Source: Gemmatimonadota bacterium
GTDB lineage: Bacteria; Gemmatimonadota; Gemmatimonadetes; Longimicrobiales; Gaopeijiaceae
Direction of reading: 5' to 3'
DNA length: 57,853 nt
NCBI GenBank assembly: GCA_003248075.1
Contig: QJYK01000180.1
Location: 1-57,853, forward strand
The position numbers and the translations under genes are program-made. How positions within the stretch are numbered: position 1 is the stretch's first letter; every line of letters begins with the position of its first letter. Below the pieces are notes generated by a model, which was not told the DNA's origin, ran no database searches, and was given only the letters and a program-made list of their open reading frames with translations. Positions 12,708 to 29,521 of the stretch are shown here, piece by piece.

Positions 12708-13682
12708 TCACGCACCACGCTCGATCCGATCGAGGAGACCCGCCACCAGGTCGGCCGCCGCGTGGGGGTCACACCCGAGGTGGAGCGTCCAGGCTCCCAC
12801 CTCCGAGAGCCGCTCGGGCACGCCGTCCATCGCGTCCCGGAAGACGTCGAAGCCCGGCTCGTCCGGCTGTCCGACCGCGCGCTCCACGGCGGCAGGAGAG
12901 GCTCGCTCGACGCGAGGGCTCCCCCGCGACGGACGCAGAAGGCAGATGCCGGCCCGCTCGCGGACCGGTGGAAGTCCCGGGACCTGCACAGGGAGCGGGA
13001 CCGCCACCTTGGTGGTGCCGTTTCCGCGCACGACAGGACGTACCTCCGTCATCTCAGGAAAGAAACGGAGGGACTCCTCGGGCAGATGCGTCGGGCCGGG
13101 CATGCCCCAGACCCGGAAAGGCGGGCCCACCTGCACGTACACACAGTCCTCCGCGAGAACGGTCAGGCCTCGAAGCGCGCACGCCAGCGTGAGCGTGCTC
13201 TTCCCCACCCCTGACGGACCGTGGAGGAGAAGGGCTCCCGTGCGACCCGCGACCGCGCCGGCGTGCACGGGGCGGCGGTCGTGGGCGGTGACCAGATAGA
13301 GCGTGAGGGCCGATAGGACGGCGAAACGGAAGTGCGCCCCCCGGGAGACGAGCGTCGGCGTGATCCAGGCGTACGCTTCGCCCGTGGCGAGATCCGCGAA
13401 CGCCAGGCTCCCGGGAGTCGCCACCACGAGTCGATCGGCGCCCGCCTTGCGGTAGCGGACGTCCGCGTTGTCGGCGTCCGAGGGGTCGTCCTCGTGGAAG
13501 GCCAGGCGAACGACCACCCGAGCGTCCGCCAGCGGGCCAACGTGCTCTTCGAGACCGCGCCACGGCCCGAATGCTTCCACGACCTGTTCCAGCAGGGCGG
13601 GCTCGGACGCCTCGAAGCAGGTAGCGACACCCAGCACCGGTAGCTCGATGCGATGTGGGAAGCCCACGTCGCGGTAGAGCAT
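12708..13682 (-). CDS. HPr-kinase-like (HprK-related) P-loop protein, last gene of the EPS operon
   Basis: This 324-residue protein carries a Walker A of the HprK type, GPSGVGKST (residues 155-163), preceded by VHAGAVA and followed by LAEDCVYV where HprK has a DD pair. The N-terminal 130 residues are unlike the HprK N-domain. HprK-related proteins occur in polysaccharide and lasso-peptide clusters, where some phosphorylate a small-molecule or peptide product rather than HPr. No HPr, PTS, PqqD or lasso genes are seen here. It follows the glycosyltransferase gene after four bases. Phosphorylation of the polymer or a precursor is an inference. The ATG at 13682 was chosen over a longer antisense extension. 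Confidence 0.78.
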   Translation of the reverse strand: MLYRDVGFPHRIELPVLGVATCFEASEPALLEQVVEAFGPWRGLEEHVGPLADARVVVRLAFHEDDPSDADNADVRYRKAGADRLVVATPGSLAFADLATGEAYAWITPTLVSRGAHFRFAVLSALTLYLVTAHDRRPVHAGAVAGRTGALLLHGPSGVGKSTLTLACALRGLTVLAEDCVYVQVGPPFRVWGMPGPTHLPEESLRFFPEMTEVRPVVRGNGTTKVAVPLPVQVPGLPPVRERAGICLLRPSRGSPRVERASPAAVERAVGQPDEPGFDVFRDAMDGVPERLSEVGAWTLHLGCDPHAAADLVAGLLDRIERGA

Positions 13683-13686
13683 GTCC

Positions 13687-14802
13687 CTAGGCGTGGCGCC
13701 CACTGCGCATCTCCTTGGCCTGGGCGTACAGATCGATCCAGCGCTCTTGCACGCGGGTGACGTCGTGCTCGCCCAGTCGTGACGCCGCCACCCGTGCGAG
13801 CTGCTCGCGCCGCCCCGGGTGCTCCAGCAGGTCCAACGCGGCCGAAGCCACCGCACCCGGCGTCCAGGTCCGGACGGTCGTCGCGGCGTGCGGCGCCCAC
13901 TCGGTGAGGATCCCCACTTCGGGGCCCAGCGAGGGTACGCCCTGGGTCGCAGCTTCCAGGACGATGCGCGGCCCGGACTCGTAGCGCGAGGTCACGAGCA
14001 GCACATGGGCCGCGGCGAGCCGTTCCCGGACGCCCGTGGGAGGCAGGAGCCCGTGGAAGCGAACCTGGGCCTCGACCCCCACCTCCCGGGCCAGCGCGCG
14101 AACCGCGCCCCCGGAGAAATCCTCGCCGACGACATCCACCCGTACGTCCGCTCCTCGGCTCCGCATGTGTCCCACAACCTTCACCAGGAAGGCCGGGTCC
14201 TTGACGGGTGCGAGCGAGCCCACCCATGCGATCCGCCAGGGAGGGCCGGGCGGCTTCGGCCGCTCCGCCGCGGGCCACAGCCCCGTGTCGATCTCGAGCG
14301 GCACGGTCACCGCTTCGAATCCGCGGGTCCGGGCATCGGCCCGTGCCGGCGCGGAGGGAACCGCCAGGGGTCCTGCGGTCGCGGCGAAGCGAATCCATGC
14401 GCGACCGGGCGCGCGGCGCCAGCCCCCGAAGCCCACCTCCGGCAGGGACGCGAACTCCCCACCCCGAGCTTCGAGCACGGCGGGTACGCCGAGCGCCCTT
14501 CCCGCCACGGCCACGACCACCCCCTGGGGCACGAGCCCGAAGGCGTGGAGCACGTCCAGCGGCCGCTCACGGTGCAGGCGCGCGAGGACGCGGAGGGCGC
14601 CCAGTCTCCGAGGACGAAGCCCGACGTTGTGCACGGTCGCATTCCCGAGAGTCCATCGGGCGGGCGCGGGCTCCTGACGCAGCGCCACGACCTGGACGTC
14701 GTGGGCGCGTGACAGAGCATATACGCGCTCCACGAGGTGCGGGACCACCCGAAGCCCACCCTCCCGCGCCACGCCCCCCGCGGTGACCAGGCCGATTCTC
14801 AT
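13687..14802 (-). CDS. GT4-type glycosyltransferase of the EPS operon
   Basis: This 371-residue GT-B glycosyltransferase opens with MRIGLVTAGGVAREGGL and contains the interdomain IAWVGSLAPVKDPAFLVK, VDVVGEDFSGG and the donor-binding ESGPRIVLEAATQGVP, a variant of the EX7E motif. It has no membrane segment and should add a sugar to the lipid-linked repeat unit at the inner face of the membrane. Donor and acceptor cannot be predicted. It lies 60 bases after the preceding glycosyltransferase and four bases before the HprK-like gene. Confidence 0.85.
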   Translation of the reverse strand: MRIGLVTAGGVAREGGLRVVPHLVERVYALSRAHDVQVVALRQEPAPARWTLGNATVHNVGLRPRRLGALRVLARLHRERPLDVLHAFGLVPQGVVVAVAGRALGVPAVLEARGGEFASLPEVGFGGWRRAPGRAWIRFAATAGPLAVPSAPARADARTRGFEAVTVPLEIDTGLWPAAERPKPPGPPWRIAWVGSLAPVKDPAFLVKVVGHMRSRGADVRVDVVGEDFSGGAVRALAREVGVEAQVRFHGLLPPTGVRERLAAAHVLLVTSRYESGPRIVLEAATQGVPSLGPEVGILTEWAPHAATTVRTWTPGAVASAALDLLEHPGRREQLARVAASRLGEHDVTRVQERWIDLYAQAKEMRSGRHA

Positions 14803-14862
14803 GGCCGCCTCACCTGCCGGAGCTCGGGTCCCGCCGGCTTCGGGCCCTCGGTCCGAGGACCC

Positions 14863-15978
14863 TCATGCGCGATGAGCGGGCCGGGAAGCCCCGGACATGA
14901 CCCGGTCGACCTCCCTCCTCATCCCCTCCAGGAACCGATCCCGTCCGAACGGTCGAGCCGATGCCACCAACCGCGCCGGTTCGAACGTGCGCGCCTCGAA
15001 GCGCAGCAGCGCCTCGACGAGCGCGTCCACCGTGGGCTCCACGAAGAACTCTCCGGTTTCCTCCGTGACCGAATCCCTGACCCCGCCGGTTCCCAGCGCA
15101 ACGACGGGCGTCCCGGACGCCAGCGCCTCCACCACCGAGATGCCGAAGTCCTCGACGCCCGGAAGCACCAGGGCGCGCGCGCGTCTGAGAACGTCTGCGA
15201 CTTCCTCGTCGGTCAGGCGGCCCGAAAGCGTGACCCGGTCCCCCGCCTCGATGCGCACCGTGCCGCTCGCTCCCGCCCCCACCCCCTCACCCACGACCAG
15301 GAGCGACCTGCCGAGGCGGCGCGCGGCCTCCACGGCGAGGTCGACCCGCTTGTACGGGGCCTGAGCCCCGAGGACCAGGTAGAAGTCCTCCTTCGGTCCC
15401 GGCGCGAAGCGCGCCAGGTCCACGGGAGGGTGGACGACCGATGCATCTCGACCGTACAGGAGTCGGATCCGGTCCCCGACGAACGTCGAGTTCGCGACGA
15501 ACGCATCCACCGACCGCGAGCTGCGCACGTCCCAGGCGCGGAGGGCGGGCGCGACGAGCTGCATGGCGGCGCGCACCGGGATCGACGCGCGACCGGGCCC
15601 GAAGTACGCGTCGTACTGGTCCCACACGTAGCGCATGGGCGTGTGGCAGTAGCAGAGGTGCCGGGCACCCGGCGGGATGCGGACCCCCTTTGCCACACAG
15701 TGGCTCGACGACAACACCAGATCGACATTCGGGAGCTCCATCGATCCCACGGCCAGGGGGAAGGAAGGGAGCAGGTATCGGTAGCGCGACGCCGCTCCCG
15801 GAACGGACTGGAGAAACGAGGTCCGGATTTCTCGAGACTCGATCACGTCGGAGACCGATCCCGGGACGTAGATGAGCGTGTGGAGCGACGCCTCGGGGAA
15901 GAGCTCGAACAGGGCCTCGAGAACGCGTTCCCCGCCGCGCATCCCCGTAATCCAGTCGTGGACGACCGCGACCTTCAT
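14863..15978 (-). CDS. GT4-type glycosyltransferase (WbaZ-like) of the EPS operon
   Basis: This 371-residue protein starts with MKVAVVHDWITGMRGGERV and carries CYCHTPMRYVWDQYDAYFG, a stretch characteristic of WbaZ/mannosyltransferase-like GT4 enzymes, then LVLGAQAPYKRVDLAVEA and the EX7E motif EDFGISVVEALASGTPVV. It is a cytoplasmic repeat-unit glycosyltransferase; a mannosyl or related transfer is suggested only by similarity. The ATG overlaps the stop of the upstream glycosyltransferase by four bases. Confidence 0.87.
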   Translation of the reverse strand: MKVAVVHDWITGMRGGERVLEALFELFPEASLHTLIYVPGSVSDVIESREIRTSFLQSVPGAASRYRYLLPSFPLAVGSMELPNVDLVLSSSHCVAKGVRIPPGARHLCYCHTPMRYVWDQYDAYFGPGRASIPVRAAMQLVAPALRAWDVRSSRSVDAFVANSTFVGDRIRLLYGRDASVVHPPVDLARFAPGPKEDFYLVLGAQAPYKRVDLAVEAARRLGRSLLVVGEGVGAGASGTVRIEAGDRVTLSGRLTDEEVADVLRRARALVLPGVEDFGISVVEALASGTPVVALGTGGVRDSVTEETGEFFVEPTVDALVEALLRFEARTFEPARLVASARPFGRDRFLEGMRREVDRVMSGASRPAHRA

Positions 15979-17057
15979 CCACCCTCCGCGACCCGGCGAC
16001 AGAGATCGAGCAGCGCGTCCGCGCTGTCGTCCCATCGGTGGTTGGCAGCCTGCTTGCGCCCGGCATCCACGCGGCGCGCCCGCGCGCTCGAGTCCTCGGT
16101 GAGCAGCGTCCAAAGGGTCCGTCGCCAGGCCGCGGGATCGAGCGGGACGATCTCGGCGGCGTCGGCCAGGACCTCCCGTGCGGGCCCGTAGGGAGCGACG
16201 ACCGCGGGTGTGCCGCACGCCAGGGCCTCGAGGGGCGGCCGCCCGAACCCCTCCGAGCGCGAAGGGTGCAGAAGCGCCACGGCCCCTCCGACCAGCGCGC
16301 GGAGCGTGTCGTCGGACGGGGCGCCCAGGTCGCGCACGCCCGGCGTCGACGCGCCGAGGCGCCGCCGATCCAACGCCCGTCCCCGACTACGGCCGACCAC
16401 GACCAACGTAGGACGGTCACCGTCCTCCCAGTCCTCCCAGAGCCGCTCGAGGAAGTCGAGTCCCTTGCGGGGATCGCCACGGACGAGAGCGAGGAAGTAG
16501 GGGCCCGCGAGGCCATGCTCCCGGCGGGCGGCGACGACGGCCTCCGGCTGGACCGGGCCCTCCAGGGGAGCGGCCCCCTGGGACACCACCACGATCTCCT
16601 CCTGGGAGCGTCCGATCCGTCGAGCCAGAGTCGCCGCCGACCAACGCGATACGGTGGCCACCCCGGCGGCGCGCCGCGCGGGTCCGAGATGCCCGACGCG
16701 CACCCAGAGCCGGTATGCGACGCGGAAGTCGCGTGGCTCCGTCAGCGGAGCCAGGTCGTGGAGCACGACGACATGCGGTCCGCCCCACCAGGGTGCGGCG
16801 TTGGCGGGATGGAGCACCACGTCGGCTCCCGCTCGGCGAGCGGCCAGGGGCAGCTCGAGCTGCTCCCACGCCACGCCCGGGAGCCGACCCTGGATCCGCC
16901 GTGCGGAGGGTACCTCATCCGCGGCGAACACGGCGTCGGATGGCGTGAGGAGGACCACCTCGGTCCGGTCGGCAAGGCGCCGTGTGACCTCGCGGGCGAA
17001 GCGTTGCACCCCGGTGGGCGGCGCCCCGAGAAAGCGGCCGTTCACGCAGACCCTCAT
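15975..17057 (-). CDS. GT4-type glycosyltransferase of the EPS operon
   Basis: This 360-residue GT-B enzyme begins MRVCVNGRFLGAPPTGVQRF, has VVVLHDLAPLTEPRDF in the N-domain and the donor-site motif SRSEGFGRPPLEALACGTP (EX7E). It resembles GT4 enzymes that extend O-antigen-like repeat units. The long open frame upstream overlaps the ligase gene, so the ATG at 17057 was chosen, which overlaps the ligase stop by four bases. Its own stop overlaps the next glycosyltransferase start in the same way. Confidence 0.86.
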   Translation of the reverse strand: MRVCVNGRFLGAPPTGVQRFAREVTRRLADRTEVVLLTPSDAVFAADEVPSARRIQGRLPGVAWEQLELPLAARRAGADVVLHPANAAPWWGGPHVVVLHDLAPLTEPRDFRVAYRLWVRVGHLGPARRAAGVATVSRWSAATLARRIGRSQEEIVVVSQGAAPLEGPVQPEAVVAARREHGLAGPYFLALVRGDPRKGLDFLERLWEDWEDGDRPTLVVVGRSRGRALDRRRLGASTPGVRDLGAPSDDTLRALVGGAVALLHPSRSEGFGRPPLEALACGTPAVVAPYGPAREVLADAAEIVPLDPAAWRRTLWTLLTEDSSARARRVDAGRKQAANHRWDDSADALLDLCRRVAEGG

Positions 17058-18436
17058 CGCGGCAGCGGGCCTCCGCCCGCCCTGGCGAGCCCCAGGGCCG
17101 CCACCAGTACGATCAGCTCCCCGACGCCGTGGGCGAAGGGCCACTCGAACAACGAAACGACGATGGCCGTGGTGAAGGACCACAGACAGGTGATCCGTGC
17201 CCACCGCTCGACCACGGGCGCCTCGCGCCGCGCGCTACGCAGGAGCCCGAGCCAGGTCGATCCGAGAAAGGCCAGCAACCCGAGCAGTCCGAGGACTCCG
17301 GCCTCGGCCGCGACGTGGACGTAACCGTTGTGCGCTGAGCCCACGAAGTCGAACAGCCCGGCGATCTGAGGCCCGAATTGCTCGAGGGCATCGCCGAAGC
17401 CGCCGGGTCCCACGCCCACGATGGGGTGCGCCTGGAACATCAGAAGGCCGGCCCCCGTGAGCAGCAGCCGCTGGGCGACGAGCACGTCACCCGTCGTCCC
17501 CGCGAGGCGCGTCGACAGGGCGCCACCCGTCACGACGTCGACCGCGAGGGCCCCCACGAGCCCCAGACCCCAGAGCCGAACCAGGGTCCGCCCCTCGCCG
17601 ACCAGCAGGAGGACCGCCGGCGCGGCGGCGACGGCCAGCCAGCTGCCCCTCGAGAATGTCGAGCCCAGGCCGAGACCGATGATCACCGCCCCGGCGCACC
17701 AGGCGGCCCGCTGTGCCCCCCTGGACGTCAGCAGCCCCTGAACGGCGAACGGGGCCGAGATGGCCAGATACATCCCCAGCTCGTTCGGCCACCCGAAGCC
17801 GCCCGCTGCACGGTAGAGCGACGATTCCGGAAGCGGAAAGCGGCCGGAGGCGGCCCCGAGGGCTTCCAGCACCGCCGCGCCACCCGCCACCGCCGCCGTC
17901 GCGACGATCCAGCCTGAGGCACTCCGCCATCCGGCCGGACGTGCACGTCCCCTGTCCAGCAGCACCCAGAAGAGCGCGAACAGGAGGACGAAGTTCACGG
18001 CTTCCCGGAGGGCGGCGATCCGCTCACCGGCGAACAGCGCGGAGACGCAGACCGCCGCCGTGAGGAGCCCCAGGGGCACCAACGAGCGCGTGGAGAATGG
18101 AGCTGGTCGTGGATCCAGGCCGCGTCCCAACACCCATCCCACGACCACGACCGCGGCGACAGGCAGGACCGGGGGCAGGCGAACAGCGTCCGTGGACAGG
18201 AACGCGGGGAGGGGCAACGACACAGCGAGCAGGGGAAGGGGCTCGACCCATCCGGCCGTCAGGATCACCGCGAGCGCCGCGGCCGCGAGGCCGCCCGCCA
18301 CGAGCGCCAAGGGCAGGGACATGGAGCTCCACGCGGCGAGTCCGAGGAATGCGGCCGCACCGAGCACCGCCGAAGCGAGCCCCGCGGTCCAGACGTCCGC
18401 ACGCGGATCCAACGCACGCACCCCCGCCGCCGTCAT
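17054..18436 (-). CDS. O-antigen ligase/polymerase (Wzy/WaaL family) membrane protein
   Basis: This 460-residue protein has about eleven to twelve hydrophobic segments. The Wzy_C-type region contains GLGLGSTFSRGSWLAV, followed by FQAHPIVGVGPGGFGDAL and SAHNGYVHVAAEAGVLG, the conserved periplasmic-loop pattern with the H-N of SAHNGYV and the P-x-x-G-x-GPGG motif. It probably polymerises or ligates repeat units on the periplasmic side after flipping. Being the only member of this family in the operon, it is more likely the Wzy polymerase. Four-base ATGA overlaps join it to both neighbours. Confidence 0.85.
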   Translation of the reverse strand: MTAAGVRALDPRADVWTAGLASAVLGAAAFLGLAAWSSMSLPLALVAGGLAAAALAVILTAGWVEPLPLLAVSLPLPAFLSTDAVRLPPVLPVAAVVVVGWVLGRGLDPRPAPFSTRSLVPLGLLTAAVCVSALFAGERIAALREAVNFVLLFALFWVLLDRGRARPAGWRSASGWIVATAAVAGGAAVLEALGAASGRFPLPESSLYRAAGGFGWPNELGMYLAISAPFAVQGLLTSRGAQRAAWCAGAVIIGLGLGSTFSRGSWLAVAAAPAVLLLVGEGRTLVRLWGLGLVGALAVDVVTGGALSTRLAGTTGDVLVAQRLLLTGAGLLMFQAHPIVGVGPGGFGDALEQFGPQIAGLFDFVGSAHNGYVHVAAEAGVLGLLGLLAFLGSTWLGLLRSARREAPVVERWARITCLWSFTTAIVVSLFEWPFAHGVGELIVLVAALGLARAGGGPLPR

Positions 18437-19911
18437 GCCGGGCCCTCCAGCTGTGCGTCCCCCGCCCCGGAGCCGAAGCCCACGGCTCGCCGCAGGGCCA
18501 GGAGCTCGAGCGGGCTCAGCGCGCGGCCGCGAACGTAGACCGAGCCGGCCACGACCAGAAAAGCCAGGCCGCGGAGCCACCCCCCGGTGGGGTCGGGCAG
18601 CAAACGACAGGCGAGTGCCCCGATCCCGCAAGCCGCTGCCAGGACCAGGGCACGCCGGCGAGGGGCGGCCCCTGCCACGATCGGCAGGGCGATCAGGAAG
18701 CCGGTCACCAGGAACGCCTCCGAGACGAGACGGGCCGTGGCTGCGCCCACGGCGCCCATCGCGGGAACGAGGGAGCGGTTCAGCAGGAAGTTGGCGACGA
18801 CGGCGACCAGGTAGAGCGCGGCCACCGGTCCCATCCGGCCTGAGGCTCCCATGACGTAGCCGCCGACGATGGTGAGCCCCAGGAGGGGAAGCAGCAACGC
18901 GAGCAACGCCAGGACCTGGGCAGCGCTCCCGTACTGCACGCCAAAGACGAGTCCGACGACCGGAGACGCCACCAGGTGGAGCGCGAGGCCAGCGGGCACG
19001 GCAGCCAGGAGCACGACCTCCATGTACCGCGCCGCAGGCGCGCCGTCACCCGTCCCCGCATGACGCGAGAGCTGCGGGTACACCGCGCCAGCGGCAACGA
19101 CGAGCAGCGCTTGGAACACGTCCACGAACTTGTACGCGGCAGTATAGACGCCGGCTTCGGCGGATCCGCTCCAGCGTTCGACGAGCAGGACGTCCATCTT
19201 CGAGTAGAGGGCGATCCCGACGAAGGCCGCGGCGAACGGGGCCAGGCCGGTGACGAGGCCCCGGACCGTGCGCGCGTCTCCGATGCCTCCCCCCCGTGCC
19301 TCTCGCGGCAGTCCCAGCCACAGCCAGGCGAAGGCGGCGCTCCACCCGGCCACGAAGCCCCAGCAGTAGAGCACCAGATCGTCGGTCACCACCAGGAGCG
19401 GGACACCCACCACAGCGGACACGATCCCGAACAACGCCGAGGCCTGGGTCCAGCGGGCCATGCGCTCCACGGCCTGATAGTACGCGGCCAGGTTCTCGGC
19501 GAACGCGTTCATCACCCACCCCAGGGAGAGCACCAGCGCCGCCGCCCGGGCTTGCGGGTCGCCGAACAGCAGACGGGCCGCCCAGAGGGTCGCGAGGACC
19601 ATCAGCCCACCCGAGAACCACTTCACGGTGTGCGCGGCCCCGAGAAGCCGTGCCGCCGAGGTCGGGGCCCTCGCGATCTCGCGGACCAGGAGGGGCAGCA
19701 TGCCCAGCGTGGCCACCACCGAAATGATGACCGCGAGAGCGGCGGCGGCGCCGTACACCCCGAAGGCCTCCGTCCCGAGCCAGCGGGCTGCCACGATCAC
19801 CGAGGCGAGCGTGAACAGGCGCGGCACCGCGAAGGCGAGGAGCAACGCGACGCCGTTCCGGAGGATCCGGTGGACCCGTCCATCTCGTTGGGTCCCCTCG
19901 AGCCCGGTCAT
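18433..19911 (-). CDS. Oligosaccharide flippase family protein (Wzx-like)
   Basis: This 492-residue membrane protein of the MATE/MOP superfamily has around twelve to fourteen membrane segments. GVALLLAFAVPRLFTL, ARWLGTEAFGVYGAAAAL and YSKMDVLLVERWSGSAEAGVY follow the order seen in Wzx/polysaccharide exporter proteins. It should translocate undecaprenyl-linked repeat units to the periplasmic face. The ATG at 19911 overlaps the stop of the sugar transferase. A longer upstream open frame is only the antisense or other-frame extension through that gene. Confidence 0.88.
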   Translation of the reverse strand: MTGLEGTQRDGRVHRILRNGVALLLAFAVPRLFTLASVIVAARWLGTEAFGVYGAAAALAVIISVVATLGMLPLLVREIARAPTSAARLLGAAHTVKWFSGGLMVLATLWAARLLFGDPQARAAALVLSLGWVMNAFAENLAAYYQAVERMARWTQASALFGIVSAVVGVPLLVVTDDLVLYCWGFVAGWSAAFAWLWLGLPREARGGGIGDARTVRGLVTGLAPFAAAFVGIALYSKMDVLLVERWSGSAEAGVYTAAYKFVDVFQALLVVAAGAVYPQLSRHAGTGDGAPAARYMEVVLLAAVPAGLALHLVASPVVGLVFGVQYGSAAQVLALLALLLPLLGLTIVGGYVMGASGRMGPVAALYLVAVVANFLLNRSLVPAMGAVGAATARLVSEAFLVTGFLIALPIVAGAAPRRRALVLAAACGIGALACRLLPDPTGGWLRGLAFLVVAGSVYVRGRALSPLELLALRRAVGFGSGAGDAQLEGPA

Positions 19912-20504
19912 CCGTCGCGCTGTCCCTGGAGGACGGCAACGACGGACCGGACCAGGATCGCCAGGTCCCCCCTCCAGCTCCGCCCCCGAACGTACTCCAC
20001 CTCGATCCTGGCTCGCTCCGGGTACGGCGGGCGGGCCCGTCCCCTCGAGTTCCAGGCGCCGAAGATGCCCGGCTTGACGCCGAGCAGGGTCTCCCGGTCC
20101 TCCCCGAAGAGGTCCAGCTCCTCCGGTACGATGGGTCTCGGCCCGACGAGACCCATGCACCCGGCCAGCACGTTGTAGAGCTGTGGTAGCTCGTCCACGT
20201 AGGTCTGCCGGAGCAGACGCCCCCACCACGGGACCCTCGGGTCCTCTCGGGACGGAAGCTTGAACCCGTTTTCTCGGTGGCGGTCGCGCAGGCCGGATTC
20301 ACGCTTCAGCAGCGCTTCTGCCTCCCGCGTCATCGTGCGGAGCTTCCAGCAGCGGAAGACACGCCCCCCACGCCCCAGACGATGATGACCGAAGAACACG
20401 GGCCGCCCCCCCGCCAACAGCACGAACAGGGCGGCCCCCGCCAGGAGGGGGAGCGCAAGGGCGAGCAGCAACGCCGCGGTGACGATGTCGAAGATCCTGC
20501 GCAC
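19908..20504 (-). CDS. Priming undecaprenyl-phosphate sugar-1-phosphate transferase, short form
   Basis: This is a 198-residue Bac_transf protein with a single N-terminal membrane segment (TAALLLALALPLLAGAAL), then GHHRLGRGGRVFRCWKLRTM, the catalytic DELPQLYNVLAGCMGLVGPRP and KPGIFGAWNSRGR. It lacks the extra membrane helices and CoA-binding-like domain of WbaP/WcaJ and so resembles the minimal PglC-type enzyme. It loads the first sugar-phosphate on the lipid carrier. The GTG at 20504 has GGAAGGG just upstream; a TTG near 20549 overlapping the previous stop is an alternative. Confidence 0.87.
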   Translation of the reverse strand: MRRIFDIVTAALLLALALPLLAGAALFVLLAGGRPVFFGHHRLGRGGRVFRCWKLRTMTREAEALLKRESGLRDRHRENGFKLPSREDPRVPWWGRLLRQTYVDELPQLYNVLAGCMGLVGPRPIVPEELDLFGEDRETLLGVKPGIFGAWNSRGRARPPYPERARIEVEYVRGRSWRGDLAILVRSVVAVLQGQRDG

Positions 20505-20545
20505 CGACCCTTCCGGGAGCCTGGGGGGGCACAGGGGAAGCTCCG

Positions 20546-22474
20546 TCAATCCCACAGGGCAGCGACCTCCGAGCGCCTTCGCACCACCACCACCGAGCCG
20601 CTCACGGGGCACCCCGCCCTCGACAGCCACGCCGACACCCGCTCCACGTCCTGGCGCCGGCTGCGTCCCGAGACGCAGGCGAGGACGCAGCGGCGCGCCT
20701 CGCCTGCCAGAACGGTGGCGTCGGCGAAGCTGGCCACGGCCCGCGCGCGTGCGGGCTCCCTCACCGCGTCGAGGACCTGGGCCCCCAGCGGGTGCATTGG
20801 CCCGATGGGCACGATCACCCCCGTCTCACCCAGCCACGAGCGCAGGGTCGCGAGCTCCGCTTCCGAGGGCGGGGCTCCGGCGCGCAGCGCCACCACGGGC
20901 GACCCGGTGGCGTCTTCCAGCCAGCGGGCCGAGCGCACCGTGGGGTCCGCGCGCTCGACGACGACCATCCCCAGCAGACCGGCGCCGCTCGCGATCAACA
21001 GTCCGGCGGCGAGCCCGAGCTTCTTGCGCGGCCACACGGGCCGATAGCGGAGGGCGGGAGGGTCGACCACCTGCACGTTCGAAAAGGCGAGCGCGAGCCT
21101 GAGCTCCTCCTGCCGCAGTCGCTGCTCGGTGAGGACCGAGACTTCGGACAGCACGCGGACCTCGCGCTGGCCGCGCCCGAATGCGACCGCCTGGGCGGGG
21201 AGTGCACCGACCACTCTCTCCAGCTCGGCGCGCCGGTGCTCGAGCTCGGCAACTCCATCGGCCAGCGACGTCCGATACTCGCTCACCAGCTTGCGGAGCG
21301 CCTCGTCGAGCTGCCGGATCTGTTGGTCCAGGGTGCGTGCCTCGCGCGACTCCGGCTGGCGTACCGCCAACGTCGCCGTGCGCTGCTCCTCCAGAAGCGT
21401 GAGCCGCTCGAGGAGCGTCCCGACGGTCTGATTCTCCAGGAAGCGGGGATGGGCCACCAGCGTGGACCATGCCGACATCGGGTCCGCCGCCTCGTCCACG
21501 CGGATCAGCTGTCGATCGAGCAGGTCGAGCTCGGCGCGGGCCTGCGTGAGCTCCTGGTAGACGATCTCGTAGCGCTGCACCAACGCCTCGCTCTGAGCGT
21601 CCGGGGCGACCAGCCCCGTACGCCTCTGCACCCGTTCCAGCGAGTCCTCCGCAGCTCGGAGCTCGGCGCGCGTGCCACGAGCCACAGTCTTGAGCGAGTC
21701 GACCGTCTGGTCGCTCTCCTGCCGGAAGAGTCGGGCTCGGAGGCGGATGAACTCGGACACGGCGGCGTTCACGACCGCATCGGCGACGCCGGGATCGTCG
21801 TGCGTGTACGAGATCTGCAGGACGTTCGCGTCGCGTCGTGTGCGGACCAGCGAGATCCCTCCCGAGGCGCTGCGCACGGCTTCGCCGAACGGCCGGGTCA
21901 CGAGGTGGATGGTGGTCGGTCCCCCTTCCCGGCGCGGAGCGAACGTGAGCTCCATGCCCCCGAACTCCGCCGCCTCACCGACCCGGAAGCGACCCACCTC
22001 CCCGCGCTGCGGAGCGGTGCGCTCCACGCGCACCTGATCGCCTTCCCAGGTCGCTTCCCAGGTGGCCTTGAAGGTCGTGTCCCGTGACGAGAGGCCGACC
22101 GCGGTGAACAGCGAATCACGGGTCCACCCCCGCGGCGCGTCGAGTCTCACGCTCAACGCGACCGTCCGCACCACCTCCTCGGCCAGGGTGCGGCTCGAAA
22201 GGATCTCCAGGTCGTTCGCGAAGGGATCGCCTCCCGTACGCAGGAAGCTGAGCAGCCCGCCCGTCGCCGAGACCCCGGGGCTCGGCGGCGGCTCACCGAT
22301 GCGCAGCCGGGCTTCGGCCCGGTACACCGGGCGGGAGAGGAGGAGGACCAGAGCAACCACAACCATCACCGCGGCCGCGATGCCTGCGCCCCAGGGCAGA
22401 CGGCGGGCGAGCACGCGGATCACCGAGCGCAAGAAGTCCGGCCGCGCTGTCACGCCCCGCCCCGCGTCCGTCAT
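20546..22474 (-). CDS. Polysaccharide co-polymerase (Wzz/GumC-like) with non-kinase C-terminal domain
   Basis: This 642-residue inner-membrane protein has a first membrane helix (AAAVMVVVALVLLLSR, about residues 34-49), a long periplasmic region rich in coiled coil (residues 250-450), and a second helix around 486-503 followed by ERADPTVRS, the usual Wzz-to-kinase junction. The C-terminal 130 residues sit where BY-kinases have their ATP domain, yet show no Walker A. They may be a degenerate kinase-like domain. The protein sets chain length and links polymerisation to export. The ATG overlaps the stop of the export gene by four bases. Confidence 0.87.
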   Translation of the reverse strand: MTDAGRGVTARPDFLRSVIRVLARRLPWGAGIAAAVMVVVALVLLLSRPVYRAEARLRIGEPPPSPGVSATGGLLSFLRTGGDPFANDLEILSSRTLAEEVVRTVALSVRLDAPRGWTRDSLFTAVGLSSRDTTFKATWEATWEGDQVRVERTAPQRGEVGRFRVGEAAEFGGMELTFAPRREGGPTTIHLVTRPFGEAVRSASGGISLVRTRRDANVLQISYTHDDPGVADAVVNAAVSEFIRLRARLFRQESDQTVDSLKTVARGTRAELRAAEDSLERVQRRTGLVAPDAQSEALVQRYEIVYQELTQARAELDLLDRQLIRVDEAADPMSAWSTLVAHPRFLENQTVGTLLERLTLLEEQRTATLAVRQPESREARTLDQQIRQLDEALRKLVSEYRTSLADGVAELEHRRAELERVVGALPAQAVAFGRGQREVRVLSEVSVLTEQRLRQEELRLALAFSNVQVVDPPALRYRPVWPRKKLGLAAGLLIASGAGLLGMVVVERADPTVRSARWLEDATGSPVVALRAGAPPSEAELATLRSWLGETGVIVPIGPMHPLGAQVLDAVREPARARAVASFADATVLAGEARRCVLACVSGRSRRQDVERVSAWLSRAGCPVSGSVVVVRRRSEVAALWD

Positions 22475-23118
22475 CTGATCAGCAGGGCGGTGAGCACGGA
22501 AGCCACCAGTGACGCCCCGGCTCCCAGGAGGAACGGGAGGTTCTCGGACGCCCAGGAGCGTCGGCCGACCAGGAGCCGATCGCCGGAGCGCAGGGGCTCT
22601 CGCAGTAGACGCGCATCATCCGCGGTGAGCACGACGACCGTGGAGTCCCCACGGACGAGACGGACGTCCCCCCGGTCCGCGGATTCGGTCAGACCCCCGG
22701 CAGCCGCGAGCACGTCGGAGAACGTCATGGTGGGATCCACGGGCTGGAGCCCCGGGACACGTACCTCGCCGAGCACGGCGATCCGGAGCAGAGGCACCAG
22801 CCGCACCGCCGCATCCCTGAACTCCGCAGCGAACGCCCTGCGCACCTCCTCCTCCACCTCCGCGAAAGGCCGTTCCGCGACCTGGATCAGCCCGGCCACC
22901 GGGAGAAGGACCTGGCCCCGGTGGTCGACCTCGAACTGGAGCGGCTGCCGGGCCTCGGTGGGGTCGGGCACCAGCGCGGTCTCTGGGAAGACCTCGAGGC
23001 GCACCATGTCGCCCGGCAGAAGGCGCAGGGTATCCGCCGCAGACCGTTGCTGCGCCGCCCCGCCCGTGACCACGGCGAGCAGAAGCGCGATCGCTGAAGA
23101 CTCGAATGGCAGGCGCAT
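22471..23118 (-). CDS. Polysaccharide export protein (Wza-like, PES plus SLBB domains)
   Basis: This 215-residue protein has a signal peptide (AIALLLAVVTGGAA) and then the PES domain (LLPGDMVRLEVFPE, FEVDHRGQVLLPVAGLIQV) and one SLBB domain (AVLGEVRVPGLQPVDPTMTFSDVLAAAGGL). A hydrophobic segment closes the protein (FLLGAGASLVASVLTALLI). It has no lipobox. Short GumB-like exporters have this layout. It is the first gene of the minus-strand EPS operon, and the promoter and inverted repeat lie directly upstream. Confidence 0.88.
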   Translation of the reverse strand: MRLPFESSAIALLLAVVTGGAAQQRSAADTLRLLPGDMVRLEVFPETALVPDPTEARQPLQFEVDHRGQVLLPVAGLIQVAERPFAEVEEEVRRAFAAEFRDAAVRLVPLLRIAVLGEVRVPGLQPVDPTMTFSDVLAAAGGLTESADRGDVRLVRGDSTVVVLTADDARLLREPLRSGDRLLVGRRSWASENLPFLLGAGASLVASVLTALLIR

Positions 23119-23151
23119 CGGATCCCGGGGATGACAAGGAGCAGCGGCTTT

Positions 23152-23171
23152 GCTTGCCGAGGGGGGCAAGC
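23152..23171. promoter_or_regulatory. Inverted repeat over the predicted EPS operon start site
   Basis: GCTTGCC and GGCAAGC are separated by six bases (GAGGGG). The repeat touches the proposed -10 box and covers the predicted start of the minus-strand transcript, a position typical for a repressor operator. It could also form a 5'-end hairpin in the RNA. The regulator is unknown. Confidence 0.45.
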
Positions 23172-23198
23172 TTAAAGATCCTAAAGTCGTATAGTCAA
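23171..23198 (-). promoter_or_regulatory. Sigma-70-type promoter of the EPS operon
   Basis: On the minus strand TTGACT (23198-23193) is followed after 16 bases by TTTAAG (23176-23171). It is the only AT-rich stretch between the divergent export and nucleotidyltransferase genes, which supports a promoter role. The predicted start falls inside the adjacent inverted repeat. Confidence 0.5.
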
Positions 23199-23262
23199 CC
23201 GATTCGCGAACCGATGCCCTCCGGCCTCGCCGGACGCCCGTTCGACCCGCGCCCCACCCGCC

Positions 23263-24588
23263 GTGACCGCATCCGCACCGCTGTCGTTCGACGCGTTGGA
23301 CCTCTCGCCCACCGAGGTGGCACAGAGGTTCCGTTGGGCCCGGCGCCAGGGCCACCCTTCATACGTCTGGCCCGACGTCCCGATGGCAGGGTGGTCCGCC
23401 GCGGCCCGGGCGATCGAGTCGGTCACCGCCGCGGCGCTCGCTTCGGGCGTCGCCGTTTCGCCACCCCTGCGGCTCGGGCTGAGTGCTCCCGGGGATGCCG
23501 TGGAGCCGGCGCGCGCATTGGGTGTCGCCGCCTTCACCTCGGGCATGGGCCCCTGGTTGGGTCGGTGGATCGAGGACGGGACTCTCCTGGCCGACCCCGA
23601 CACGGCCGCCGTGCTCGAGCTCCACCTGCGTCATGCCCGGGTCCGGGCGGGGCGTGTCCTGGAGCTCCTGGGCTCCCTGGGGCCGACGCTCCGTGGCCTC
23701 GACCCCTGCCCTTTGATCCTGAAGGGCGTGCACACGGGCTGGATGTATTTCCCGGAGCCCTCCTGCCGCCCCGCCGCGGACGTGGACCTCCTCGTGGCCC
23801 CGGAGCTCCGCCGGGCGACGGAGCAGGCGCTCGAGTCGAGAGGCTACACGCTCACACAGCGCCAGCGTCGGCCCATCCGATCGGTCTGGCGTCCCCCCGG
23901 GGCCCCGAACGCGCTCCCGTCCCTGTCGCTGAGCCACGGGCAGGGCCCCCTGACCGTGGACCTCCACGCCTCGCTGGAGCGGAGCTTCCTCGGCATCCGC
24001 GCGGTCGCCCTCGCCTGGCCGCGCGCCCCGGACACCGTGGCGATTCCAGGGCTGCCGGATCCGTTCCGGGGCCTCGCGGCCCCGCACCTGGTCCTTTCCC
24101 TCGCGCTCCACGCCTCGGAGGACCTCCACAACATGCAGCTCCTTCGCGTCGTGGAGATCGTTCTGGTGGCCCGTTCCATGGGCGACGGTGACTGGGATCG
24201 GGTCATCCACCTGGCCGACGGCTCGGACGCGCTGCGTTTCGCCTGGCCCGCGCTGGCTCTCGCGGACCAGCTGGCGCCGGGAGCGGTGCGCTCGGACGTC
24301 CTCCGGGCGGCGACGGCGCGCGTCCCCGAGCGGATCCGCCGGGTCGTGACCGGCCTCACGCCCGGCACTGCTCTTCGCCTGGATGGCCTGTCCATCGAGG
24401 AGCGTTTGATGGGGGCGAGCACCCGAGGTGAGCTGCTCCGGCGGATCGGTCACATGCTGCTTCCGTCCCGGGCGGGCAATTCACCCCGGGAGCTGGGACG
24501 CATCTACCTGGAACGCGTCTACCGCCTCTTCCGTGGGCGCGTCCGCCTCCGCTCCGGCCGCGCGGACGGAGGTCGATCGGAGTCCTAG
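23263..24588 (+). CDS. Nucleotidyltransferase family protein (PF14907-like), divergent from the EPS operon
   Basis: This 441-residue protein shows the minimal nucleotidyltransferase signature of this family: LILKGVHTGWMYFPEPSCRP followed by AADVDLLV (D173, D175), with a downstream VDLHASLE stretch. Members occur in polysaccharide and lasso-peptide clusters, often together with HprK-related kinases, and are thought to transfer nucleotide or phosphate groups. Here the partner HprK-like gene ends the divergent EPS operon, which suggests a joint modification step (inference). The GTG at 23263 is the first usable start and has no obvious SD, so the true start is uncertain. Confidence 0.8.
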   Translation: MTASAPLSFDALDLSPTEVAQRFRWARRQGHPSYVWPDVPMAGWSAAARAIESVTAAALASGVAVSPPLRLGLSAPGDAVEPARALGVAAFTSGMGPWLGRWIEDGTLLADPDTAAVLELHLRHARVRAGRVLELLGSLGPTLRGLDPCPLILKGVHTGWMYFPEPSCRPAADVDLLVAPELRRATEQALESRGYTLTQRQRRPIRSVWRPPGAPNALPSLSLSHGQGPLTVDLHASLERSFLGIRAVALAWPRAPDTVAIPGLPDPFRGLAAPHLVLSLALHASEDLHNMQLLRVVEIVLVARSMGDGDWDRVIHLADGSDALRFAWPALALADQLAPGAVRSDVLRAATARVPERIRRVVTGLTPGTALRLDGLSIEERLMGASTRGELLRRIGHMLLPSRAGNSPRELGRIYLERVYRLFRGRVRLRSGRADGGRSES

Positions 24589-24624: not shown

Positions 24625-25845
24625 TCACCCCGGATGCCGGGCCAGCGCCCGGGTCAGGAGTCCCCCGCCCACGGCCGCTACGAGCGCCGCCGTCGTGAAG
24701 AGTGCAGCGAAGGAGCCGGCGCCCAGAAGCAGGCCGCCGGCGCTCGCGCCCATCAAGCCGCTGAGCTCGGTCGCCGCATTCCGCCACGAGGACACCGCTC
24801 CCCGCTCGGAAGCCGCGGCCTCGTCCAGCAGCAGCTCGTCCAGGAGCGGATTCGTCGCCGGTGGCGCGAGGCCCTGAAGCGCGTACCACACCGTCGCGAG
24901 CAACGCGCCCCCCGCGAAGGCCAGGCCCACGAGCGCGACCGGGAAGAACAATACCCACCCCACCAGAACGCGGAGTGGGCCGGCGCGCTGCGCGAGCTCC
25001 CCGCCGGCCACGAGGAGAAGCGCCGTAACCGCCTGCATGAGCCCGAAGAGGAGCCCGATCCGCTCCACGCTCCAGCCGTGGACACGCAGGAAGTAGAGGT
25101 TGAAGAAGGGCAGGACCATCCCCGCGGCGAGCATCCAGATCAGAACCAGTCCGACCAGCAGGCGTATCCGGGGGCGGACCGCCAACGTTCGCCAGCCATG
25201 GCCTCGGCGGTTCGGTGCGCCGGTGGGAGCCGAGGACGGCGTGGCCGTGACGCCGAGGATCCGCACCGCCAGCGGGCCCGAAAGCAGCGTACCTGCGGCA
25301 CACAGGAGAAGGCCCGCGCGGATTCCCGCGATGCTGGACGCGCCCGTCAGGTCGGACCACCAGGTCGGAAGCGCACCCGCCGCCGCCGTCCACACCGACC
25401 CGGACGCCAGCAGCGCGGCCACGTTCCACGAGAAGGCCCGGGACCGGATGTCGGGCGGCGCGATCGCCATGAGCACCGGACCCATGGTGACCCGCCACGT
25501 GGCGGTTCCCGCTCCGGCCATCATCGCGCCGGCGAGGATGCCGGCACCCGACTCCGCCAGCGCACCCCAGGCGAGTCCTGCGGTCCCCAGGAGCGAGGCC
25601 AGGACATACGACCGAGCGGCTCCGAACCGGTCGAGCAGGAACCCTGCCGGGGCCAGCGCGATCAGGCCGCCAGCGGTCATCGACGAGGCGGCAAGCCCCA
25701 TGAAGGCCTCTCCGCGACCCAGGGCATCCAGATAGAAGTTGTAGAGGAAGGCGTGCGCGAAGAGTCCGGCCCCGAAGAGGACATTGGCCGCGAGAAAGGG
25801 CCCAACGCCCGCCCAGCTCGAGCGCTTTTCGGCCCCAGACCCCAC
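24625..25845 (-). CDS. MFS transporter
   Basis: This 406-residue protein has about twelve hydrophobic segments in two halves linked near residues 195-215. The N-half contains ALAPAGFLLDRFGAARSYV, matching the loop 2-3 motif of the major facilitator superfamily (G-x-L-x-D-R-x-G). The substrate cannot be inferred. It lies tail-to-tail with the nucleotidyltransferase gene (36-base gap) and head-to-head with the TonB-dependent receptor gene, so it could share a transport task with the receptor, but no direct evidence shows this. Confidence 0.85.
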   Translation of the reverse strand: MGSGAEKRSSWAGVGPFLAANVLFGAGLFAHAFLYNFYLDALGRGEAFMGLAASSMTAGGLIALAPAGFLLDRFGAARSYVLASLLGTAGLAWGALAESGAGILAGAMMAGAGTATWRVTMGPVLMAIAPPDIRSRAFSWNVAALLASGSVWTAAAGALPTWWSDLTGASSIAGIRAGLLLCAAGTLLSGPLAVRILGVTATPSSAPTGAPNRRGHGWRTLAVRPRIRLLVGLVLIWMLAAGMVLPFFNLYFLRVHGWSVERIGLLFGLMQAVTALLLVAGGELAQRAGPLRVLVGWVLFFPVALVGLAFAGGALLATVWYALQGLAPPATNPLLDELLLDEAAASERGAVSSWRNAATELSGLMGASAGGLLLGAGSFAALFTTAALVAAVGGGLLTRALARHPG

Positions 25846-25949: not shown

Positions 25950-25966
25950 GGGGATCAATTGTCCCC
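25950..25966. promoter_or_regulatory. Small inverted repeat upstream of the TonB-dependent receptor gene
   Basis: GGGGA and TCCCC flank seven bases (TCAATTG) about 40 bases before the receptor ATG, in the 161-base MFS/receptor intergenic region. It could be an operator. I see no cobalamin riboswitch here despite the BtuB-like receptor. Confidence 0.3.
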
Positions 25967-26006
25967 TCCATACGGAATCGCCCCCACGGCTCAACATCGG
26001 CTCGCC

Positions 26007-27983
26007 ATGTCCCTTGCACGTTCGACCCTGCGCTCCGCCCTTGCCGTCCTGATCGGGTGGCCACTCGCGGCCCAGCAACCGACGGACACGCTCCGGGTCC
26101 GGCCCGACACCGTCTTCGCGCTGTCACCGATCGTCGTCACCGCGAGTCGACTCCCCACGAGGCCCGAGCGCTTGGGCTTCGCGCTGACCGTGGTGCGCCC
26201 GAGGCCGCGGTCGTCCCCCTGGCCGGCCGACCTGGTCCAGAAGGGGCCCGGTGCCTTCCTGGACCAGGCCGCCGGGCCGGGAGGCCCCGCCATCGTCCGC
26301 CTTCGAGGTGGAGAGGAGGTGTTCACCCAGATCCTCGTCGACGGCGTCCAGGTCAACCAAAACGGCGGATTCTTCGACTTCCAGGGCTTCGGGCTGTCCA
26401 ATCTCGCCGACGTGCAGATCGCCCGGGGACCCCAGAGCGCCGTGTACGGCTCCTCGGCGGTCAGCGGAGTGGTCCATTTCACGACGCCGAGAGGCGAGCC
26501 GGGCGCACCGGTGGTCTCCGTCCGCGGCGAGGGAGGAGGGGCGACCGAGCACGGGGGCAGTTGGCGAGGGGCAGGTACGGTACGCGGCGGCACCCCGACG
26601 TTCCGCTACTCGGCAGGCGTGGGATCGGCCTACTCGAGAGGCGTCTACGCTGTTGCACATGATACACGCACCGACGACGGATCGGTGCGGCTCGATTGGG
26701 CCCCGAGCCCCGGATGGGAGACCACACTGCTGGCGCGGCGCATCGAGATGTCGTCGAATCTTCCCGTGAGGGATCCCGGCGCGACGCGTGTCCCTCTGGA
26801 CCCCAACGCCCGCAACGACCGCGATCGAACCGTGGCTTCGGTGGCGATCCGGCGCGCCTCGGAGTCGCGTGAGCATCACCTCAAGGTCTCGACCTATCGC
26901 GAGTCCTTCCGGTACGAGGATCGCTTCGACGGGATCGCGCCGCCGGTGGAGGCGGGCTTCTTCGTCTTCGACGCCAACCTCCTGTTCACCAGCCATCTCG
27001 ATCGCGTCTCGGCGGAGCTGGGCGGCTCGTCGCAGGCCGGCGTCTTCGCGCTGGCGTACGGGGGCGCGCTCGAGCGCGAGGCGCTGGAAGACCGGGTTTC
27101 GGGCGACTTCGGGGGAGACCCGCTCCTCCTGGATCGGTCCTCGGTGGCCGGCTTCGGCGAGCTCGCCTGGCGGCCGACGGACGCCCTCGCGCTCACCGGG
27201 GGCGTGCGCGTCGAGAAGTACGAAGCGCTCGATGCGGAGGCCACGCCCCGAGCGAGCCTGCGGTGGTCGCCCGTCGAAGGGCGCCTGTCCCTCCGCCTGG
27301 CAGCGGGCAGGGCGTACAAGGCGCCGAACCTGCAGCAACAATACGTGGACAATCCCTTCATCGTGGCGAACCCCGAGCTGCGCGCCGAGCGCAGCTCGTC
27401 CATTGAAATGGGTGTGGACGTCTCGTCCCCCGGCGGCGACCGGAGCCTGGGCGTCACCGTCTTCCGGCAACGCTTCGACGACCTGATCCGCACCGTCGGT
27501 ATCGAGAACGACTCGAGGCAGATCAACAGGAACCTCGGCGCGAGTCGGGCCACCGGGCTCGAATGGGAGGCCGGAATGGCGCTGGCGGGCCCCTGGAAGG
27601 TGGCGACATCGGGGACGTGGCTGCGCACCGAGGTGCTCGACAACGTCGGGCTGTCACCCTCCGAGTTCCCGATCGGAGAAGCGCTTCCGTTCCGACCCAA
27701 GGTCGTCGGTACGCTCTCGCTGGAGTATGACGACGACGTGGTGGGCGCGAGCCTGGATGTCCGCAGGATCGGCAGCCAGATCGTCCTCTCCGAGCGTTTC
27801 AGCGGGCGCCGCGTCGCCCTCGACCCGTACACCCTCGTCGGGGTGTCGGGTCGGTGGACGGTGCGCGAAGGGCTGAGCCTGTTCGTGAGAGCGGAGAACC
27901 TGCTCGACACGGAGTACGCGACGGCGTTCGATCGGCACGGCATCCCCGCCACCGGAACCGCGGGCTTCGAGATCGTGTTCTGA
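26007..27983 (+). CDS. TonB-dependent receptor, BtuB-like
   Basis: This 658-residue outer-membrane receptor has a signal peptide (LAVLIGWPLAAQ) from the ATG at 26007. The plug domain follows (VTASRLPTRPERLG, RLRGGEEVFTQILVDGVQVN, VQIARGPQSAVYGSSAVSG), then a beta-barrel ending in Phe (EIVF) with the late SLFVRAENLLDTEYAT motif. The size and short plug resemble BtuB and other small-ligand receptors rather than SusC-like ones. The ligand is not determined: there is no B12 riboswitch or adjacent uptake ABC transporter. Energy comes from TonB encoded elsewhere. Confidence 0.9.
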   Translation: MSLARSTLRSALAVLIGWPLAAQQPTDTLRVRPDTVFALSPIVVTASRLPTRPERLGFALTVVRPRPRSSPWPADLVQKGPGAFLDQAAGPGGPAIVRLRGGEEVFTQILVDGVQVNQNGGFFDFQGFGLSNLADVQIARGPQSAVYGSSAVSGVVHFTTPRGEPGAPVVSVRGEGGGATEHGGSWRGAGTVRGGTPTFRYSAGVGSAYSRGVYAVAHDTRTDDGSVRLDWAPSPGWETTLLARRIEMSSNLPVRDPGATRVPLDPNARNDRDRTVASVAIRRASESREHHLKVSTYRESFRYEDRFDGIAPPVEAGFFVFDANLLFTSHLDRVSAELGGSSQAGVFALAYGGALEREALEDRVSGDFGGDPLLLDRSSVAGFGELAWRPTDALALTGGVRVEKYEALDAEATPRASLRWSPVEGRLSLRLAAGRAYKAPNLQQQYVDNPFIVANPELRAERSSSIEMGVDVSSPGGDRSLGVTVFRQRFDDLIRTVGIENDSRQINRNLGASRATGLEWEAGMALAGPWKVATSGTWLRTEVLDNVGLSPSEFPIGEALPFRPKVVGTLSLEYDDDVVGASLDVRRIGSQIVLSERFSGRRVALDPYTLVGVSGRWTVREGLSLFVRAENLLDTEYATAFDRHGIPATGTAGFEIVF

Positions 27984-28025: not shown

Positions 28026-29441
28026 TCAGAAACGGCGGGCCAGGAACGCGCTCCATTGCCAGGCGGACGACCCCGAGCCCGCCCCGGTGACGGAGGAAGC
28101 GACGCCCCACTCCCATCCGCCCCGCCAGCCGCGCGCCTCGAGCTCCGCGAGCAGTCCGTTTCCCGCCAGATCCGGCGCGAGGAGGTTATGGTCGCCGCGC
28201 CGGACGAGGCCCGACCCGAGCTCGATCGCCGTCCCCGGCAACGCGATGCCCCAGGTGGCCGCCACAGAGAGGCCCTGACCCGCGAGAGGATCCCCCAACG
28301 GCACGCCGCGGTCCGTCCATCCCCAGGCCAGGGCGCCGTGCCGGTACCACGGCGGATAGGTCGCGGTGGGCCCGGCAAGCCAGGTGACCTCGAGCCCGCT
28401 CCAGCTGTCCGGTAGAGGTCCCACGCGCGCTTCGGCGTCGAAGCGAAGTCCGGGCACGCGCGCGAACGCGAATCCGGCGTCGTCCGCCGCATACTCGGCA
28501 CCGATGCGGACGGGCCGCCCGGACAGTCGCGTCCGCCAGCGGACGTCCACCGACGCCACCTGGTTCTCGAAGTCGGAGTCCTTCCCGCGGGTATCCGTGA
28601 TCCCGAGGAGCATGAGGCCCACCGTGCGTGGCGTGACGGGGATCTCCGAAGCCGATCCCCCGAAGATCACCGCACGGTTGAGCCCGATCACCACGTCATG
28701 CGAGGGACGAAGCTCGACACGCATCGCGTGGAAGAGCGGCCGTCGGTTGCCCGGGCCCGCCTCCGGGAGCGCGCCGATCTGCAGCCCCACGGTGAAGCCT
28801 CCGAGCACCGGGATGCGAAAGCCCCGGCGTTGACGGACGTCCAACCCCCACAGGGGTCCCGCTCCCCCGCCGAGCACCAGACCATGCGCGCACCCGGGGC
28901 CGGTCCGCAGGGGGAGCGCGCCCGCCTGCGCCGCGAGGCGCCCCGAACCCACGCCGACGCTCAGGGACCGGACGAACGGGCGTCCTCGTCCGGCCGCGAC
29001 GTCCGCGGACAAGACCCATCGCCCCGGGAGGAGCTCCACGGACCATCGCACGGCGGGGGCCCGGGGCGGTACGAGCCGGGGCCCGGGGTAGGAATAGCCG
29101 GCCTGCGCGCTCCCCTCCATCGCCCCGGCCGCGCCGGGACCGCCCCCGCCCCGCCCCGAGATGCCGACCGTGAAGGCCCCCGCGTCACGGGACCGGAGCA
29201 GCGCCGACTCCGCGGCGCGGGCCGGGATCGACTCCGAGCCCGACACCGGGACCGCGGGCAGGGGACGCGCGCCGAAGGTGAGGAGGGGCGCATCGCCGGA
29301 CCCACCTTCGGTCCAACCCCGCAGCACCCCCAGACACACCACGTCCAGCCCGACCCCCGACTCGGCGACGACCTGACCCGCAACGCCAGCCGCGATGACG
29401 AGCATGGGGGCCGCACCGACGATCAGCGCGCGGACGGTCAT
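28026..29441 (-). CDS. Capsule assembly Wzi family protein
   Basis: This 471-residue protein has a signal peptide (LIVGAAPMLVIAAGVAG) from the ATG at 29441 and ends in Phe like outer-membrane barrels. The stretch LFHAMRVELRPSHDVVIGLNRAVIFGG and the later TRLSGRPVRIGAEYAADDAG match the Wzi beta-barrel family, which anchors capsule at the cell surface. This fits the EPS operon five kilobases away. An alternative GTG at 29525 overlaps the upstream gene's stop (GTGA) but would put 28 residues before the signal peptide. Confidence 0.78.
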   Translation of the reverse strand: MTVRALIVGAAPMLVIAAGVAGQVVAESGVGLDVVCLGVLRGWTEGGSGDAPLLTFGARPLPAVPVSGSESIPARAAESALLRSRDAGAFTVGISGRGGGGPGAAGAMEGSAQAGYSYPGPRLVPPRAPAVRWSVELLPGRWVLSADVAAGRGRPFVRSLSVGVGSGRLAAQAGALPLRTGPGCAHGLVLGGGAGPLWGLDVRQRRGFRIPVLGGFTVGLQIGALPEAGPGNRRPLFHAMRVELRPSHDVVIGLNRAVIFGGSASEIPVTPRTVGLMLLGITDTRGKDSDFENQVASVDVRWRTRLSGRPVRIGAEYAADDAGFAFARVPGLRFDAEARVGPLPDSWSGLEVTWLAGPTATYPPWYRHGALAWGWTDRGVPLGDPLAGQGLSVAATWGIALPGTAIELGSGLVRRGDHNLLAPDLAGNGLLAELEARGWRGGWEWGVASSVTGAGSGSSAWQWSAFLARRF

Positions 29442-29521
29442 GATCCCGCGCTTCGCGACCCTGCTCCGCAGGAGGGCATGCGGCGCGGGGACGCCGGCCG
29501 GGTGGCCCGCCGGAGCCGAGC

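Follow-up and report, generated by a model that had tools for sequence, protein, structure and literature searches.

What would an HprK-like kinase and a nucleotidyltransferase be doing at the two ends of a polysaccharide operon? The question is raised by a 57,853-nucleotide stretch of contig QJYK01000180.1 (assembly GCA_003248075.1; hereafter the window), which belongs to a 5.6-Mb Gemmatimonadota genome and carries an exopolysaccharide (EPS) operon that ends in such a kinase gene and faces a divergent gene for a PF14907 nucleotidyltransferase (NT). The pair as such is already known from lasso peptides: HprK-like kinase and NT families act together in lasso clusters and, in the case of pseudomycoidin, PsmK converts a Ser to phosphoserine, on which PsmN installs hexose(s) (PMC9266682). 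For the window we favour, with a probability of roughly 45%, the reading that kinase and NT form the core of a Gemmatimonadota tailoring cassette, which decorates a glycan or glycoside with a phosphate-linked group and is here integrated with a Wzx/Wzy EPS or capsule operon.

Gene order and family scores bear out a first-pass annotation of the locus, which had described nine minus-strand genes, five of them joined by four-base ATGA overlaps, and a complete Wzx/Wzy pathway. The transcription order is Wza, Wzz/GNVR, polyprenyl-phosphate sugar phosphotransferase (PGT), Wzx, Wzy, three family-4 glycosyltransferases (GT4c, GT4b, GT4a) and the HprK-like kinase, with exact ATGA overlaps at the wza/wzz, PGT/wzx, wzx/wzy, wzy/GT4c and GT4c/GT4b junctions (Table 1). 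Wza (PF02563, SLBB), Wzx (PF01943), Wzy (PF04932), PGT (PF02397) and the three GT4 proteins score above the Pfam cut-offs; the Wzz/GNVR protein lies slightly below them (25.9 vs 27.7 and 22.1 vs 25.5 bits), matches TIGR03007 (8e-17) and is, judged by its sequence, clearly a chain-length determinant. PGT, flippase, polymerase, chain-length determinant, exporter and glycosyltransferases are found within one operon: compared with known Wzx/Wzy EPS or capsule operons the set is complete (Wza-Wzz-PGT-Wzx-Wzy-GT), and it differs from them by the terminal kinase and the facing NT.

The resemblance of the last gene product to HPr kinases, as claimed in the annotation, is weak in sequence: PF07475 yields 17.7 bits against a cut-off of 33.3, TIGR00679 (HPr kinase/phosphorylase) 15 against 240, and even the best sequence family, TIGR04352 (HprK-related kinase A), only 26.4 against 200 bits, far too low for membership. 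The predicted fold, in contrast, is unambiguously that of HprK/PEPCK. An AlphaFold2 model built from 14 relatives (pLDDT 87.7), following a suggestion of the first-pass annotation, resembles PEPCK over its full length (Z 14.7), and its residues 135-324 resemble the C-terminal domain of HprK/P (VIA-align Z 12.7; 132 residues, 2.8 A to 1kkl). Across the relatives H140, the P-loop GKS (K161), D179, Q184 and R190 are invariant or nearly so. The His-Lys-Asp-Asp catalytic motif reported for lasso kinases (PMC9266682) is present, with D or E at the first Asp position in most sequences (E178 in the window); this His-Lys-(Asp/Glu)-Asp motif and an NT-family partner are what the kinase shares with PsmK/PsmN and with the PadeK and ThcoK kinases. 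The structural match to HprK/P would also suit a regulator that controls the EPS operon via HPr or another protein, an explanation that we hold to be very improbable: the PF07475 and TIGR00679 scores miss their cut-offs, residues 1-134 align in the model with PEPCK and not with the HprK N-domain, and the conserved partners are NT and glycosyltransferase (GT) genes, a neighbourhood unlike that of HPr kinase/phosphorylase.

The divergent gene was correctly assigned, since its product scores 78.4 bits with PF14907 (NTP_transf_5; gathering cut-off 31.2). K154, D173, D175 and D233 are invariant in 12 relatives, and in a structural model (pLDDT 83) the predicted pol-beta-type core resembles MenT1 (Z 11.7) and ANT(2'')-Ia (Z 10.2). 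The fold and the DxD plus a third Asp are common to the NT and such enzymes; additional helical regions at both of its termini, very low identity and another genomic context set it apart, and its profile had no match among PDB sequences. Residues and predicted folds taken together, both kinase and NT look catalytically competent. PF14907 is annotated only as ‘uncharacterised nucleotidyltransferase’, and the pair offers a testable route to the chemistry of this family.

The annotation had further proposed that the pair is used outside lasso peptides, which would be weakened if it occurred in this genome only. In a sample of 249 Gemmatimonadota genomes, full-length kinases grouping with the window's own (clade kinases) occur in 16, NTs grouping with the window's own (clade NTs) in 16, and both in 14, leaving two singletons on either side; the pair does recur, overall in about twenty related genomes. 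The association far exceeds chance (Fisher 5e-19, uncorrected for phylogeny) but is partly selected, because the clade profile was made from NTs near the kinase, and an independent PF14907 search returns the same neighbours. An NT lies within 12 kb of 13 of the 16 clade kinases, at spacings of 0.4-10.5 kb. For G043 and G239, whose kinase genes are located at the end of a contig, the clade NT together with a gene for a major facilitator superfamily (MFS) transporter is found on another contig; in G116 the kinase is near a contig end and no clade NT was found in the assembly. An NT alignment profile retrieved seven loci from genome contigs, all of them Gemmatimonadota metagenome-assembled genomes, while a single-protein search of the contigs and tblastn of kinase, NT and MFS against plasmids gave no match. 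The cassette is distributed patchily, over at least six families and about 6% of the genomes. Some copies end beside tRNA genes (L062:11695-12757, with a phage-type integrase; L063:11621-11693), which suggests insertion at tRNA sites; patchy spread and flanks of this kind fit horizontal transfer.

Given the precedent, the pair might tailor a ribosomally synthesized and post-translationally modified peptide (RiPP), lasso or other, with a precursor that is hidden or lies at another site. Apart from the cooperation of both families in lasso clusters (PMC9266682), this would be in line with the B12-dependent and SPASM radical SAM genes at some loci, and with the lasso B protein (PF13471) that is encoded within 12 kb of 21 of the 62 other HprK-like hits of the phylum. 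Near the clade kinases, however, PF13471 was found in 0 of 16 cases. A profile search for the PqqD-type recognition protein was negative in every cassette locus read and positive in all five comparison loci (L078, L079, L094, L095, L096), no conserved small open reading frame (ORF) was found between cassette loci, and the kinases of lasso loci form a separate tree branch (support 100/98). An early small-ORF match between L076 and L077 was an artefact of poor gene calling in lower-GC sequence, and retraining removed it. The annotation was thus right that peptide-processing genes are missing at the pair, and the small hidden peptide that it had entertained as a substrate is not supported; for the clade of the window a lasso or RiPP function is rejected, and as a rival explanation we consider it improbable. 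The absence of lasso genes and PqqD makes the pair a non-lasso relative of PsmK/PsmN, from which it also differs in that no precursor or PqqD-like recognition element is encoded and glycosyltransferases take the place of the peptide genes. A report of kinase and NT in polysaccharide loci was not found in the open-access literature (subscription papers were not covered), and neither was, in the same literature, a clade without peptide machinery and with EPS, MFS/TonB or radical SAM partners.

What replaces the peptide as acceptor? A polysaccharide, as the annotation had supposed, is only partly borne out. In its favour, most loci have a GT4 or GT2 gene no more than five genes away from kinase or NT, and GT4a represents a distinct GT4 subfamily present at about 14 loci, the window included. 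Moreover, HprK-like kinases of about 600 aa with a GT2-type C-terminal part occur in G213, G012, G219 and G156 (L018, L020, L021, L028; L078:9166-10950), each with an NT at a distance of 1.7-2.6 kb; the GT2 domain is Pfam-confirmed in G213 and was read from the sequence in the other three. The NT of G213 is a fusion protein too, with an NAD-dependent epimerase domain at its N terminus (L078:10947-12938), in a locus that also holds ABC-exporter, Wzz and Wza genes. Judged by domain content, these fusions tie the pair to sugars. The G213 locus and the related, unfused G178 locus (L079) differ from the window clade in that they also carry PqqD.

On the other hand, the pair is not bound to Wza and Wzz. 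Counting its occurrence beside these genes, as had been proposed, shows that none of the 16 clade kinases lies near PF13471, and that a full EPS operon shares the contig with the pair in three loci only: the window, G006 (L082 and L072) and G250 (L103 and L108). G116 carries the operon on a separate contig (L110), and most cassette loci are without an export pathway nearby. An initial reading of the cassette as unrelated to EPS was nevertheless revised, because the operons of G006 and G250 are orthologous to that of the window (Wzz 47-51%, PGT 59%, Wzx 44-49%, Wzy 40-49%, GT4b 54-62%). EPS linkage of the pair recurs, yet it is a minority context.

The loci of the pair are of two main types. 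Type A consists of a TonB-dependent receptor, MFS transporter, NT, in part glycosyltransferases, and kinase (window, L062, L063, L066, L069, L070/L071, L065/L081, L100, L105), and type B of two B12-dependent radical SAM proteins, two or three methyltransferases, an amidohydrolase, a GT4, NT and kinase (L064, L067, L072-L075, L077 and L103, not all of which have every member; L068 has part of the set). The MFS gene occurs in only 7 of the 249 genomes, all seven with clade kinase and clade NT. Downstream of the window's NT, the genes for the MFS transporter and the TonB receptor, overlooked by the annotation, are members of the cassette set. Seven of the other kinase genomes encode a 505-aa radical SAM protein, most copies of which share 63-76% identity, and no genome with the MFS gene does. 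For two sets of 7 among 16, the probability of having no member in common is by hand arithmetic 36/11440, or about 0.003. The two modules, MFS with TonB and B12-radical SAM with methyltransferases and amidohydrolase, are mutually exclusive, which suggests that the acceptor could be either imported or made on site.

These companions open the main rival explanation, namely that the cassette serves the synthesis or salvage of a specialised small molecule resembling a metallophore or a nucleoside, which the MFS protein exports or imports and the TonB receptor takes up, the EPS link of the window being incidental. The minimal loci L063 and L105 favour it, as the conserved DNA stops at the kinase and leaves TonB receptor, MFS, NT and kinase alone. 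The strict association of MFS with the pair and the adjoining TonB gene, the radical SAM, methyltransferase and deaminase-like amidohydrolase modules elsewhere, the mobility suggested by tRNA and integrase flanks, and the predicted likeness of the NT fold to the small-molecule nucleotidylating enzymes ANT(2'') and LnuA all point the same way. The type A loci, however, are without a scaffold-forming enzyme, glycosyltransferases and HprK-GT2 fusions dominate the wider picture, and the pair-adjacent EPS operon is orthologous in three loci, so that we regard a small-molecule pathway as possible and somewhat doubtful. One special form of it, corrinoid (cobinamide) salvage with TonB/MFS import and a CobU-like action of kinase plus NT, could draw on the BtuB-like best family of the TonB receptor (though far under the cut-off), on B12-dependent enzymes in sister loci and on the lack of CobU in G000. 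CobS is absent from 15 of the 16 cassette genomes, which would turn the product into a dead end, and no cobalamin riboswitch was detected in the 14 sources scanned; cobinamide salvage is largely refuted and has next to no probability left.

Returning to a cassette that decorates glycans or glycosides, gene content, association, predicted folds, catalytic residues and fusions are compatible with the following sequence of events. GT4a and its partners, whose family assignment is firm, would build the sugar part, on a putative substrate. In the cytoplasm the kinase might then use a nucleoside triphosphate to phosphorylate a hydroxyl of the glycoside or of a small-molecule aglycone, as its fold and catalytic residues would allow. 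By analogy, the NT could subsequently transfer a nucleoside monophosphate, or a hexose as reported for PsmN, onto the new phosphate or a neighbouring hydroxyl, and its catalytic Asp residues would be suited to produce such a phosphodiester-type decoration. In the window Wzx would presumably flip the lipid-linked EPS unit once decorated, leaving polymerisation to Wzy and export to Wzz/Wza; where EPS genes are missing, the associated MFS and TonB proteins may carry the product, or a precursor, across the membranes in either direction.

Several observations weigh against this proposal: the selected share of the co-occurrence figure, the minimal loci without any glycosyltransferase, the L075 locus with none within reach, a TonB/MFS set that suits small-molecule traffic better than a polymer, and a phosphodiester chemistry that leans on one distant precedent with an alternative reading of its own. 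A wider version, to which we give only tentative and rather low credence, holds that a peptide-independent kinase-NT system places phosphate-linked groups on glycans and glycosides behind interchangeable front ends for acceptor import or acceptor synthesis, and that some lineages have wired it to EPS, yielding phosphate- or nucleotidyl-decorated EPS. If so, a non-peptide, glycosyltransferase-linked branch, fused members included, would make the pair a general device for phosphate-based tailoring, and the bacterial polysaccharides or secreted glycosides of a poorly studied phylum could gain a new modification.

Table 1. Features of the operon, the facing nucleotidyltransferase gene and its neighbours (positions in the window).
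Feature	Position	Strand	Remarks
HprK/PEPCK-fold kinase	12708..13682	-	324 aa; cassette core; H140, P-loop K161, E178-D179, K225 kept
GT4a	13687..14802	-	cassette-specific family-4 glycosyltransferase, directly upstream of kinase; relatives at ~13 other loci
GT4b	14863..15978	-	family-4 glycosyltransferase; 54-62% to G006 and G250 copies
GT4c	15975..17057	-	family-4 glycosyltransferase
Wzy-type polymerase	17054..18436	-	O-antigen/EPS polymerase (PF04932)
Wzx-type flippase	18433..19911	-	PF01943
PGT	19908..20504	-	polyprenyl-phosphate sugar phosphotransferase (PF02397); start uncertain, 20504 or 20555
Wzz/GNVR protein	20546..22474	-	chain-length determinant
Wza-type export protein	22471..23118	-	Poly_export + SLBB
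Divergent intergenic region wza–NT	23119..23262		144 bp
PF14907 nucleotidyltransferase	23263..24588	+	441 aa; K154, D173xD175, D233 kept; predicted pol-beta/MNT fold
MFS transporter	24625..25845	-	member of cassette set
TonB-dependent receptor	25959..27983	+	adjoins MFS gene in all type A cassettes
Wzi-like outer-membrane protein	28026..29525	-	capsule assembly (PF14052); possibly member of the polysaccharide system

The Wzi-like gene near the EPS operon suggests a cell-attached capsule instead of free EPS. Among the other loci, a second, divergent HprK-like subgroup (tree branch 2.77) is represented in L071, L080 and L027; in L071 and L080 its gene is accompanied, in the same order, by genes for a sulfotransferase, a PIG-L deacetylase, a GNAT protein and a B12-radical SAM protein. 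The L103 locus encodes a 915-aa fusion of amidohydrolase, GT2 and FkbM methyltransferase domains (L103:12879-15626). Finally, the window holds two membrane dipeptidase (M19) genes, at 6741-7895 and 11550-12704, the second of which follows a beta-lactamase-fold gene (10345-11553) via a four-base overlap.

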